From the NCBI RefSeq assembly GCF_003352915.1, contig NZ_CP022314.1, positions 1,595,737 through 1,659,736 on the forward strand: a DNA stretch of 64,000 nucleotides, in the 5' to 3' direction. Below are positions 1,880-49,909 of the stretch, in pieces. The notes under the pieces are model-generated. The model had not been told where the DNA came from. It searched no databases and saw nothing but the letters and a program-made list of their open reading frames with translations. Each line of letters opens with the position of its first letter. Positions within the stretch are counted from its first letter, which is position 1. The stretch comes from Arthrobacter sp. PM3 (GTDB lineage: Bacteria; Actinomycetota; Actinomycetes; Actinomycetales; Micrococcaceae). The position numbers and the translations under genes were made by a program.

Positions 1880-2242
1880 ATGATTCCGGGAGAATACGTC
1901 CTCAGCGCCGCGCCGCTGGTGATCAACGCCGGCCGCGAGGCGGTGGAAGTCGCCGTGACCAACACCGGCGACCGGCCCGTCCAGGTGGGCTCGCATTTCC
2001 ACTTCGCCGAGGCGAACGCCGCCCTGCGGTTCGACCGGCAGGCCGCCTACGGCCGGCGGCTGGATATTCCGGCCGGCACCGCGGCTCGGTTCGAACCGGG
2101 GGACAGCAGGACGGTCCGGCTGATCGAACTGACGGGAAACCGTGAGGTGTACGGCCTCAGCAATGCAGTGAACGGCAAACTCCGCGATGCGGGACGCCAC
2201 GATTCCGAACTCGACGCATCCGGACAGGCAGGGGATCAATAG
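1880..2242 (+). CDS. ureB: urease beta subunit
   Basis: This 120-residue protein starts MIPGEYVLS and contains the UreB core [44 protein letters not shown]. It packs against UreC in the urease trimer. The start is set by a strong AGGAGGAG site. The stop TAG ends on the G that begins the GTG start of ureC, so translation is probably coupled and keeps the subunits stoichiometric. The C-terminal tail (after about residue 100) is longer than in Klebsiella UreB and Asp/Gly-rich. Confidence 0.97.
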
Positions 2243-4014
2243 TGAGTTTCGAGCTCTCCCGACGGCAGTACGCAGACCTCTACGGCCCGACGACGGGCGA
2301 CGCCATCCGCCTCGCGGACACCGAACTGTTCCTCGAAATCGAAAAAGACCTCACCGTTTACGGCGAGGAGGTGGTGTTCGGCGGCGGCAAGGTCATCCGC
2401 GACGGCATGGGCCAGAACGGCCAGATGACCCGGGACGGGAGCGACTCCGCCGAAGACATCCCGGACACCGTAATCACCAACGTCGTGGTGCTGGACTACA
2501 CCGGCATCTACAAGGCCGACGTCGCACTCCGGGACGGGCACATCTTCCGGATCGGCAAGGCCGGCAACCCGCAAATCACCGACGGTGTCGACATCGTGAT
2601 CGGCGCCAGCACGGAGATCATTGCCGGTGAGCGGAAAATCCTGACCGCCGGCGGGGTGGATTCCCACATCCACTTCATTTCCCCGGACCAGGTGGCCACC
2701 GCCCTGTGCAGCGGCGTGACCACGCTGGTGGGCGGCGGCACCGGGCCGGCCGAGGGCACCAAGGCCACCACCGTCACGCCCGGGAAATGGCACATCCAGC
2801 GCATGCTGCAGGCCGCCGAAGGGTTCCCCATCAACATCGGCCTGTTCGGCAAGGGGCACGCGTCCGCCGTCGAACCCCTGGCCGAGCAGATCCGCGCCGG
2901 CGCGATCGGACTGAAAGTCCACGAAGACTGGGGTTCCACGACCTCCTCCATCGACACCTCGCTGCAGGTCGCGGACCAGTACGACGTCCAGGTGGCCATC
3001 CACACCGACACGCTGAACGAGTGCGGCTTCGTGGAGGACACTGTCCGGGCCATCAACGGCCGCGTGATCCACACCTTCCACACCGAGGGCGCCGGCGGCG
3101 GCCACGCCCCGGACATCATCAAGATCGCCGGGCTGCCCAACGTCCTGCCGGCCTCCACGAACCCGACACTGCCCTACACGCGCAACACCATCGAAGAGCA
3201 TCTGGACATGCTCATGGTGTGCCACCACCTGAACCCGGACATCCCGGAAGACGTGGCGTTCGCCGACTCCCGGATCCGCGCCGAAACCATCGCCGCCGAG
3301 GACGTCCTGCAGGACCTGGGGATCTTCGCCATCACGTCCTCGGATTCCCAGGCCATGGGCCGGGTGGGCGAGGTCATCACCCGCACCTGGCAGGTGGCGG
3401 ACAAGATGAAGAAGCAGCGCGGCGTGCTCAAGGACCCGCAGCTGGACAGCACCGGCGGCGCCGGCGGCGAGGCATCCGGCAAGGACGCGGAGAGCGACAA
3501 CTTCCGGCTAAAGCGCTACGTGGCGAAGTACACCATCAACCCGGCCATCGCCCAAGGCATGGCCGACTCCATCGGTTCGGTGGAGGTCGGCAAGTTCGCT
3601 GACCTGGTGCTGTGGGACCCGGCGTTCTTCGGGGTCAAGCCGGAGCTGGTGCTCAAGGGCGGCCAGATCGCCTACGCCCTGATGGGGGACGCCAACGCCT
3701 CCATCCCGACGCCGCAGCCGCGTACGATGCGGCCCATGTTCGCCGCGTACGGCAAGGCGGTGCAGCAGTCCTCGATCACGTTTCTGTCCCAGGCCGCCAT
3801 CGACGCCGGGGTCCCGGCCGAACTCGGGCTGCAGAAGGTCATCCGGCCGGTGTCCGGCATCCGCAACCTCACGAAGACGGACCTGAAGCACAACGGTGCC
3901 ACCCCGCAGATCGAGGTGGACCCGGAAACGTACCAGGTCACGGTCGACGGCGAGGACGTCACCTGCGAACCGTCGGACGTCCTGCCCATGGCGCAGCGCT
4001 ACTTCCTTTTCTGA
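2242..4014 (+). CDS. ureC: urease alpha subunit (catalytic)
   Basis: At 590 residues it is slightly longer than the usual 565-575. All active-site residues are present: nickel ligands H142 and H144 (SHIH), the bridging lysine K225 to be carbamylated (GLKVHEDWG), H254 (IHTDTLNE), H280 ([13 protein letters not shown]), D368 ([10 protein letters not shown]), plus flap cysteine C327 and catalytic H328 (VCHHLNPD). It hydrolyses urea once UreDEFG have inserted nickel. Oddity: a Gly/Asp/Glu-rich insertion at about residues 398-417, where other UreC proteins have a much shorter acidic linker before the [19 protein letters not shown] segment. The start is GTG, overlapping the ureB stop. Confidence 0.98.
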
Positions 4015-47633: not shown

Positions 47634-48749
47634 TCAGCCCGTCTTCGCCATGGCGTAGGCCGCGGTGCCGTAGGCCAGGGCCGCGGACATGTCTTTGAGC
47701 AGGTCCTGGTTGATGTTCGAGGTCGTGTCGCAGGCCTCGTGGTAGCAGGGATCGAGATGCTTGCCGGCCTGGCCGCCGTACTCCTGCACCTGGGCCCGGG
47801 TCTTCTTCTTCTCATCGCCGGTGAACAGCCCGCCGCCCGGAATGCCCGCCGAGAGGAACGCGTCGTAGTCGGAGCCGCCGTCGAACGGCGTGGTCTCCGC
47901 CGGCAGCGAGTTCTCCTTGAAGAACTGGAAGAAGATGTCCTCGATCGCCTTCGACCCGGCCGGCCCGGCGTGCCCGAAGTCCGTGCCGTCGCCGTCATGC
48001 ACGGACCGGACCCCGTTGGGCGAGGCCACCATGTCCACGTTCAGGTTCGCCGCGGTCTGTTGTTTCTCGGTCTGGCTGAGCTCGTCGACGTAATGCTGGG
48101 AGCCGTAGAGCCCGTCTTCCTCCCCGCCCCAGAACGCGAACCGGACCCGGTTGGCCGGCGCGATCCCGGATTCCTTCAGCCACCGCGCGGTCTCGAGGAC
48201 GGCCGCGATCCCGCTGCCGTTGTCGTCAATGCCCGGGCCCTCCGGCACGGAGTCCAGGTGCGCGCCCACCACCACGGTGTGCTCCGCGCTGCCGCCGGTG
48301 TCGGCGAGGATATTGAAGGACTGCACCTGCTTCTTGTTCCGGCCGTCCCCCCGGAAGCTGAAGGTCTGCCGGACCGGCGTGTAGCCGGCCGCCCGCAGCT
48401 GCTCCTCGACGTAGCGGCCCGATTCCTCGTACCCGTTCGTGCCGGAGGCGCGGTTGCCGCCGTTGGCGTCGGCGATCCGCTGCAGTGCCTCCAGGTGGCT
48501 GCTCATGCCCCGGGTCTTGAAGTCCGCCAGCACCGTGCGCGCATCCACCGGGCTGACCGGATTCAGTTGCAGGGCGGCAGGACGGGACGAAGCGGGAGCG
48601 CTGGGGCTGGCGGACCTGGCTGACTTGGTGGATTTGCTGCTGGGGCTGCTGCTCGGGGATCCGGCCGCGGTTTCGGACGTGCAGGCCGACGTCGAGAGCA
48701 GGATCACGGCGAGGACGGAGGGGAGGATGTGTTTGCGTAAAGTGATCAT
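47634..48749 (-). CDS. M28-family zinc aminopeptidase lipoprotein
   Basis: A 371-residue exported peptidase. The signal peptide ends in the lipobox STSAC (C23), followed by a Ser/Lys/Pro spacer and a domain carrying the paired-zinc residues in VVGAHLDSV, GIDDNGSGI, FAFWGGEEDG, NLNVDM and CYHEACD. It resembles the Streptomyces griseus aminopeptidase group, which removes large hydrophobic N-terminal residues outside the cell. Between 48750 and 48920 no gene is seen; this gap should hold its promoter. Confidence 0.93.
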   Translation of the reverse strand: MITLRKHILPSVLAVILLSTSACTSETAAGSPSSSPSSKSTKSARSASPSAPASSRPAALQLNPVSPVDARTVLADFKTRGMSSHLEALQRIADANGGNRASGTNGYEESGRYVEEQLRAAGYTPVRQTFSFRGDGRNKKQVQSFNILADTGGSAEHTVVVGAHLDSVPEGPGIDDNGSGIAAVLETARWLKESGIAPANRVRFAFWGGEEDGLYGSQHYVDELSQTEKQQTAANLNVDMVASPNGVRSVHDGDGTDFGHAGPAGSKAIEDIFFQFFKENSLPAETTPFDGGSDYDAFLSAGIPGGGLFTGDEKKKTRAQVQEYGGQAGKHLDPCYHEACDTTSNINQDLLKDMSAALAYGTAAYAMAKTG

Positions 48750-49005
48750 GCCGAGGAGCCCCCATCAGTAGTGTGTACAAGTTCGCTTTCGTTCGGCTCG
48801 AATGGACAAGACGCCCGGCACTGACACACCAGTAGGTCGCGGCCACCATCGCCCGGCAAATACTCCTATCAGATCGAACTATTGTCGGCCCTCCGGCTGT
48901 GGGGTCAATAGGGCCTGGCTGTGAAACTGCTGTGCAAGTGGGGCTGGGCAAGTGGCCGCTGCCTCCGGGGGGACATGCCCAGCGGCCGCCTCCGGTGCCC
49001 GGGCG

Positions 49006-49078
49006 CATGCCCTCCCCTTGCGCCGAGGAATGGACATAGGCCCGCTATGCCCATTCCTCGGCGCGCCGGGGGAGCATG
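49006..49078. repeat. hairpin module A of the repeat field
   Basis: Between the CATG cores at 49006 and 49075, CGCCGAGGAATGG (49021-49033) pairs exactly with its complement at 49051-49063. After one mismatch, CATAG pairs with CTATG (49035-49039 / 49045-49049), giving 18 of 19 paired positions. Confidence 0.8.
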
Positions 49079-49149
49079 CTCAGCGGCTGGCTGGCTGGCT
49101 GGATCGTGGGTGGGTGGGCACGCTCGGTGGTGGGTTTGGGGAACGGCAG

Positions 49150-49252
49150 GAGCATGCTCAATGGTGGGCCGGGGCCGGGGGAGCATGCTCAATGGTGGGC
49201 CGGGGCCGGGGGAGCGTGCTCAATGGTGGGCCGGGGCCACGGGGACATGCTC
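49150..49252. repeat. 31-bp tandem repeat with GAGCATGCTC palindrome
   Basis: Units begin at 49150, 49181 and 49212, with a partial fourth at 49243. The first two are identical over 31 bp; the third carries GAGCGTGCTC, which breaks the palindrome. Each unit is GAGCATGCTCAATGGTGGGC followed by a CGGGGCC run. There are no unique spacers, so it is not a CRISPR array. Confidence 0.85.
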
Positions 49253-49277
49253 AGTGGTGCGCCCAGGAAAGAGGGCG

Positions 49278-49350
49278 CATGTCCACTCCGTAGGCCGAGG
49301 AGTGGACATAGGCCCACTGTGTCCACTCCTGCCGCACAGCGGGGCGCATG
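49278..49350. repeat. hairpin module B of the repeat field
   Basis: This is a diverged copy of module A, again 69 bp between CATG cores. AGGAGTGGACA (49298-49308) pairs with TGTCCACTCCT (49320-49330), and the same arm can instead pair upstream with ATGTCCACTCC (49279-49289). Relative to module A the stem has an A-T pair changed to G-C on both sides. Confidence 0.8.
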
Positions 49351-49486
49351 CCCATTCGTGGCGGGGAGCATGCTCAGTGTTACGGCGCAGGGGAGGGCAT
49401 GTCCGCCCCCGGGGACCCGCCGAACCGCCACGCGCAACCGCGGCCCAAAGTCCTGGCGCAACACGGCCGGGCCTAGAATGGTCACG

Positions 49487-49909
49487 ATGATGCCAGGACA
49501 AATAGCCGCAGCGGATGGGAAGAACGTGCTGAGCATCAGTGCGGGCATCATCTACTCGGTCTGGCTTCCCGGGTCCGTTGTTGACGTCCATTACGCCAAG
49601 GACGCCATGCGGGCCGTCGAGCAGATCAGCGGGGGCATTCCGATGCCCATGCTCTCGGAAATGACCGAAGTGGAGATCAGCGCCGCCGCCAGGTACGAGT
49701 TTGCGCAGACCGCCGGGGTCTTGGCGATTGCGGTGCTTGGATCCAGCACCGTGGACCGTGTCATTGCCGCGGCCATGAGCCGGCACACCCGGTATCCCCA
49801 CGAGTTCTTCACGTCCAGGGACAACGCCGTGGCCTGGCTGAACAGGTTCATCCCCGGCGGCAGCGGGCAGCCCGAAGGATTCGAGGACGGCATCTCCGCC
49901 CTGACCTGA
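49487..49909 (+). CDS. STAS-like hypothetical protein
   Basis: A 140-residue soluble protein with alternating beta strands and helices: SISAGIIYSVWLPGSVVDVHYAKDAMRAVEQIS, a TAGVLAIAVLGSSTVDRVIAAAM core and a terminal FFTSRDNAVAWLNRFIPG. The pattern resembles SpoIIAA/STAS-like (DUF7793-type) actinobacterial proteins in which a helix follows 'SRDNAVAWL'. Function is unknown. ATG 49487 has no ribosome site but lies 7 nt after TAGAAT (49474-49479), suggesting a leaderless transcript; ATG 49478 is an alternative start. Confidence 0.65.
   Translation: MMPGQIAAADGKNVLSISAGIIYSVWLPGSVVDVHYAKDAMRAVEQISGGIPMPMLSEMTEVEISAAARYEFAQTAGVLAIAVLGSSTVDRVIAAAMSRHTRYPHEFFTSRDNAVAWLNRFIPGGSGQPEGFEDGISALT

Follow-up and report, generated by a model that had tools for sequence, protein, structure and literature searches.

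Arthrobacter sp. PM3 carries a lineage-limited family of intergenic arrays of rigidly spaced half-sites, with a putative protein partner, and one such array lies in the window analysed here (the whole stretch of 64,000 nucleotides of contig NZ_CP022314.1, positions 1,595,737 to 1,659,736). The members of the family share an exact geometry and an extragenic placement; the two arms of their modules do not covary in general, and covariation is seen at two loci. The explanation that we favour, and hold to be somewhat probable, is that of a dispersed element of rigidly spaced half-sites read by a dimeric DNA-binding protein, a minority of whose copies turned into hairpins for RNA 3' ends. On this view, the two modules of the window (A and B) belong to an intergenic element that is dispersed over the genome and has been inherited at its places. 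Its half-sites GRRCA and TGYYC would make a CATG box where they adjoin and a core where 11 bp, roughly one turn of the helix, separate them; most further boxes follow at intervals of 29 or 32 bp. The half-sites would probably be read by a dimeric protein that binds DNA sequence-specifically and covers each array, in a putative architectural or boundary role. At the window locus and following an FMN oxidoreductase gene, a minority of modules may in addition have become true hairpins, which would act in RNA at the 3' end of the gene upstream.

The array in the window

The array (CATG boxes together with modules A and B; 48971..49404, it and its parts being given without strand) lies between divergent genes: a peptidase family M28 gene on the - strand (47634..48749), with a promoter-like site at 48908-48881 on the same strand, and a DUF7793 gene on the + strand (49487..49909), ahead of which TAGAAT at 49474-49479 looks, by its letters, like a -10 element. 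Module A (49003..49081, 79 nt) departs from the family pattern by one mismatch (at 49004) and has the core GGACA-N11-TGCCC at 49032..49052; module B (49275..49353, 79 nt) departs from it by two, has the core GGACA-N11-TGTCC at 49304..49324, and is matched by orthologous modules in eight other species. The two are 81% identical over 58 nt and lie 272 bp apart. The original prediction had both modules spanning exactly 69 bp between CATG cores, and reading of the sequence confirmed these coordinates (A: 49006-49009 and 49075-49078; B: 49278-49281 and 49347-49350), together with the letters on which its compensatory change was based (A49030/T49054 in A versus G49302/C49326 in B) and the mismatch A49034/C49050 in A, whose counterpart in B is the pair A49306/T49322. 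The same 69-bp layout recurs across the genome, beyond A and B.

Further boxes are GGACATGCCC (48971..48980), 32 bp ahead of the first box of A; two copies of GAGCATGCTC (49150..49159 and 49181..49190) within a 31-bp tandem repeat; GGACATGCTC (49243..49252), 32 bp ahead of the first box of B; another GAGCATGCTC (49366..49375), 22 bp past the last box of B; and GGGCATGTCC (49395..49404), 29 bp past the preceding one. The tandem repeat (49149-49263) sets its boxes 31 bp apart, one below the usual 32, and its unit next after the box at 49181..49190 has decayed, with CGTG replacing CATG.

Both modules fold into hairpins, as had been proposed, and do so better than shuffled sequence: RNA folding gave z-scores of -6.0 (+ strand) and -7.8 (- strand) for A, with 0 of 200 shuffles as good on either strand, and of -4.5 (+ strand) and -3.6 (- strand) for B, with 0 and 1 of 200 shuffles as good, respectively. 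No U-tract terminator (a stem followed by a T run) was found in 48700-49550, and a search of the whole window with Rfam (at gathering threshold) gave no match at the array. Its sole match, 5_ureB_sRNA (2413-2701, - strand, 92 bits), is antisense within a + strand open frame (2242-4014) read as the urease alpha subunit, and so may simply reflect conserved coding sequence.

Pattern and geometry of the repeat family

The family follows the pattern GRRCATGYYC-N19-GRRCA-N11-TGYYC-N19-GRRCATGYYC, set in intergenic arrays of CATG boxes. At no more than one mismatch it occurs at 64 places in the PM3 genome (A being counted and B, with two mismatches, not), as against none for a reversed control pattern and none for a pattern with both arms one base longer. 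Other queries of the same genome gave 28 matches for the array sequence and, for the core pattern (three mismatches or fewer), 89 matches versus 44 for its reversed control. Exact matches of the box word GGACATGCTCATTNTT numbered 40, versus 0 for the control.

The geometry was read from 40 stretches of the PM3 genome, taken around matches of the core or the box word. Exactly the same layout, with 69 bp between CATG cores and symmetric about the core (CATG, 29 bp, left half-site, 11 bp, right half-site, 29 bp, CATG), is present in 52 of the 62 candidate cores, the other 10 having been dropped since they did not have the 28/20 spacing. Neighbouring boxes are spaced by 32 bp (62 times), 69 bp (56), 29 bp (37), 22-23 bp (20) and 61 bp (14), and more rarely by 31 bp (12), 33 bp (10) or 30 bp (5). 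The half-sites GRRCA and TGYYC adjoin (0 bp) 318 times and stand 11 bp apart 72 times; in the opposite order they are separated by 19 bp (171 times), 22 bp (68) or 12 bp (37). As the stretches were picked by core and box words, the 11 bp is preset for many cores, which does not hold for the 29, 32 and 69 bp. At three other loci of this genome (L086, L090 and L069) whole modules recur in tandem, with periods of 134 bp and 146 bp among others, which suggests that ordinary tandem duplication is how arrays grow.

Distribution across genomes

Among the genomes searched, the family is limited to part of one genus. The pattern (one mismatch at most) is present in 57 of 206 Arthrobacter genomes, at 1 to 67 places in each, and absent from the remaining 149; none of 318 genomes from 31 other genera of the family contains it, all 18 positives in a draw of 395 family genomes belong to Arthrobacter, and of 149 genomes drawn from the phylum only that of PM3 has it. 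On a tree of PcrA sequences from 70 genomes, of which 46 have arrays and 24 do not (a single-gene tree with weak forks), four changes are needed to account for the array, and there are two main array-bearing groups, inside one of which two genomes (G201 and G212) are devoid of arrays. Since presence is bimodal over the genus but clustered on the tree, common ancestry could by itself account for which genomes have arrays, a point against the favoured explanation. Three genomes (G067, G111 and G005) have just 5-9 modules each, and nearly all of the modules listed for them have the perfect box GGACATGTCC; these perhaps constitute a separate lineage of the element.

A search with the M28 protein returned 76 named loci, one of which has a module (at three mismatches or fewer), namely that of Arthrobacter sp. 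ok362, where the gene order (adh, DUF7793, array, M28) matches the window. Carriage by mobile DNA was considered and set aside: the exact pattern has 0 matches in viral contigs, and the window array found no match in plasmid and phage collections (distant blastn). A literature search over open-licence papers produced no description of such repeats in Arthrobacter; one line of a table in the RepRanger paper (PMC12306157) concerns an Arthrobacter genome, and the word GGACATGTCC also occurs in several p53 papers.

Placement relative to genes

With a simple gene caller, 316 of the 320 boxes of the PM3 genome fall outside called genes, in 41 arrays. The genes next to these are of ordinary kinds, Cpn10, alanine racemase, GARS and RecR being examples. 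Arrays are common to orthologous places in different species. At one of these, an inositol-phosphatase-like gene stands beside a helicase that we read, from its letters, as PcrA (hereafter hisN-pcrA), and the gap between the two genes (at loci where the stop of the first was found) measures 147-735 bp in module-bearing species versus 39-110 bp in six array-free species, which have the same promoter letters. The chosen module ends 49-50 bp ahead of the pcrA start in 23 of 33 species. The array at this place is an addition that spared the promoter and was inherited in place.

Transcription termination was considered as the purpose of the arrays and rejected: the flanks of the 41 arrays are convergent in 13 cases, in the same direction in 23 and divergent in 5, against a window baseline of 13, 37 and 12 (of 62), and the excess is not strong. 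Copies with long stems lie within 100 bp of a gene end in 4 of 9 cases, as compared to 27 of 94 for the others, a weak difference.

As for a protein partner, no candidate was found. A recurring gene beside the arrays was sought among the proteins that flank those of the PM3 genome, and those scanned (29 of about 78), together with others that were read, look ordinary, some being regulators. The DUF7793 protein was likewise dismissed as partner: it is encoded by 36 of the 206 genomes, is missing from all 9 tree rows of the second group with arrays, and also occurs in three array-free genomes (G068, G167 and G201).

Covariation between the module arms

If modules were selected for folding, the left arm should match its own right arm better than those of other modules. 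From 178 distinct modules of all loci we kept 103, the other 75 being at least 80% identical to a kept one. Over these, core pairs amount to 4.45 of 5 in cis versus 4.44 with partners swapped, the inner interior to 4.49 versus 4.31 of 10 (225 of 2000 swaps being as high), and the outer interior to 3.27 in cis versus 3.62, i.e. below the swapped value. At hisN-pcrA, across 33 species (one of 34 modules, with 6 mismatches, was dropped, and 12 of the 46 array-bearing genomes are without a module there), no covariation appears either (70.3% paired versus 69.9% shuffled, 170 of 500 as high), and the half-site positions hold 1.80 bits versus 1.07 elsewhere. Covariation of the structured-RNA kind is thus seen neither over the 103 modules nor at hisN-pcrA, and is confined to two loci. 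As the arms do not generally covary, the common 69-bp layout is not accounted for by folding. Its constancy suggests half-sites set out on double-stranded DNA, probably for a protein: the family rule is spacing plus half-sites.

A minority of copies stands apart. Nine modules, of which A and B are two, pair perfectly at 6 or more positions outside the core, versus 1.0 when partners are swapped (0 of 1000); with one mismatch and G-U pairs allowed, at least 8 pairs occur in 9 modules versus 4.9 expected (62 of 1000), a weak excess. The original prediction had taken A and B for two copies that changed under selection for a folded RNA or cruciform, and had looked to further copies with covarying pairs in relatives. 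Further copies do exist, at the 64 places given above; covarying ones are found among the orthologues of B, and not in the family at large, so that selection for a fold applies at most to a minority of copies, A and B included.

Two loci with covarying stems

Of the ten closest DUF7793 loci, nine have a module (that of G081 does not). Over these nine species the 14-pair inner stem of B consists of standard pairs in 88.1% of cases versus a shuffled mean of 85.1 (24 of 500 as high), and slid out of register in 24.6-43.7%. Four pairs changed on both sides, a count that 10 of 500 shuffles also attain, and the number of pair types resembles that of shuffles (273 of 500). All nine transition mismatches among the B orthologues are A-C on the aligned strand, which is G-U on the + strand of the window, and none is the reverse. 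At the second locus, represented by seven sequences (the FMN oxidoreductase gene being found in 6 of the 7 stretches), 98.0% of cells are paired and 5 pairs changed on both sides, a result reached by 0 of 500 shuffles; the wobble has no strand bias there (one G-U, one A-C).

These two-sided changes, together with the strong folding of A and B and the one-sided orientation of the nine mismatches, speak for a module whose folded structure, as RNA or cruciform, is under selection throughout, with A and B as a case of compensatory evolution. We nonetheless regard this as improbable: the 103 modules and the hisN-pcrA set do not covary, Rfam has no match at the array, the likely promoters of both neighbours point away from it, and four of the nine wobble cells sit at one pair, which makes the independent events few.

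Compensatory changes might also be mutational rather than selective, arising from template switching between near-palindromic arms (quasi-palindrome correction), a process by which several bases are described to change in compensation in one event (PMC8794818). Adjacent stem pairs of B did change together (GGAGTGG/CCACTCC in B versus GGGATGG/CCATCCC in the orthologues) and no one-sided G-U change is found on the aligned strand; against it, nine G-U intermediate cells are present on the + strand, and the stems persist over nine (DUF7793) and seven (FMN) sequences. We consider template switching a rather doubtful account, and one that can coexist with the reading of the modules as DNA sites.

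Intrinsic terminators offer a further likeness. Long-stem copies follow a gene end at the DUF7793 locus (in 6 of 9 species) and at the FMN locus; at those six, the module lies 48-133 bp past the end of a same-strand open frame of at least 990 nt, taken as an open frame and not as a scored gene (in one genome with three modules, G176, the pair count used the one most like B and this distance another). Unlike such terminators, the window array has no U-tract and both of its neighbours read away from it. We read the long-stem copies as reused as 3'-end hairpins of genes, or else as made by template switching. A 3'-end role misfits the PM3 genome as it now is, because its array is without a U-tract terminator and lies between divergent genes; with a divergent M28 gene upstream and likely promoters facing outward, A and B may be relics of such use.

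Comparison with known repeat and site systems

Site arrays of operators or architectural proteins (parS-, matS- or Noc-like) are one point of comparison. The arrays described here resemble them in having inverted half-sites at a fixed helical spacing in tens of extragenic places per chromosome, and differ in being arrays of boxes with a split core, to which no known site was matched. Half-sites that are conserved and stand at fixed spacing, as expected of a site array for a DNA-binding protein, are found in this family. The arms GGRCATA-N7-TATGYCC resemble a tyrosine-recombinase core site, in which inverted arms flank an overlap that recombining copies have in identical form; their N7 differs between many loci. 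The 29/32 spacing recalls the repeat and spacer lengths of type I-E CRISPR, which was discarded since both the 29 and the 32 intervals vary in sequence.

A 71-residue piece of transposase occurs at five places in the PM3 genome (2800142 in L071, 2375097 in L068, 4033656 in L077, 988505 in L062 and 1696914 in L063), all of them in or right beside CATG arrays. Its element, presumably of IS3 type by its ends and transposase letters, sits among array boxes at four of the five; at the fifth, where one end was seen, a perfect core lies about 12 bp from that end. Of the four places with both ends seen, three have the element at about half length.

REP, BIME and REPIN sequences are repetitive extragenic palindromes with a GTAG or CGTC tag beside a stem of 5-13 bp (PMC3733652), and IS3-family elements are known to target REPs (PMC1525189). 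The arrays are akin to REP and BIME in being high-copy, extragenic, palindromic, clustered, uneven between species and the target of an IS3-type element, and unlike them in having half-sites at base-exact distances and no general pairing of the arms. Membership in these families was rejected, as neither tag appears in the column counts or the unit consensus, and the Y1_Tnp domain of the REP/RAYT system is absent from the PM3 genome and above the cut-off in only one (G032) of the 206. That the arrays are remnants of REP-like selfish repeats, once spread by a since-lost transposase, would suit their dispersed, clustered and patchy occurrence and the insertions of the IS3-type element; we find it unlikely, given the near-absence of Y1_Tnp from the genus and the base-exact spacing and conserved half-sites of orthologous arrays, which remnants would lose.

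Implications

The favoured reading of the arrays, as half-sites for a dimeric protein, can be carried a step further. Tentatively, and with less confidence than that reading, we propose that the arrays, phased and numbering tens per chromosome, are the chromosomal docking platform of an undescribed, putative genome-organising or boundary protein of the array-bearing lineages only, and that some loci secondarily evolved RNA hairpins. For the study of non-coding elements the case carries a warning, namely that compensatory changes between two copies are no proof of a folded RNA: the family copies in general do not covary, and where covariation is present, it may be due to a position behind a gene or to template switching. 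For Arthrobacter, repeats that are exact to the base and occur in tens of copies in most positive genomes, with a profile of 57 genomes with versus 149 without them, constitute a ready-made screen for the partner gene, and this partner, if found, would open a new way of chromosome organisation or partition in these bacteria.
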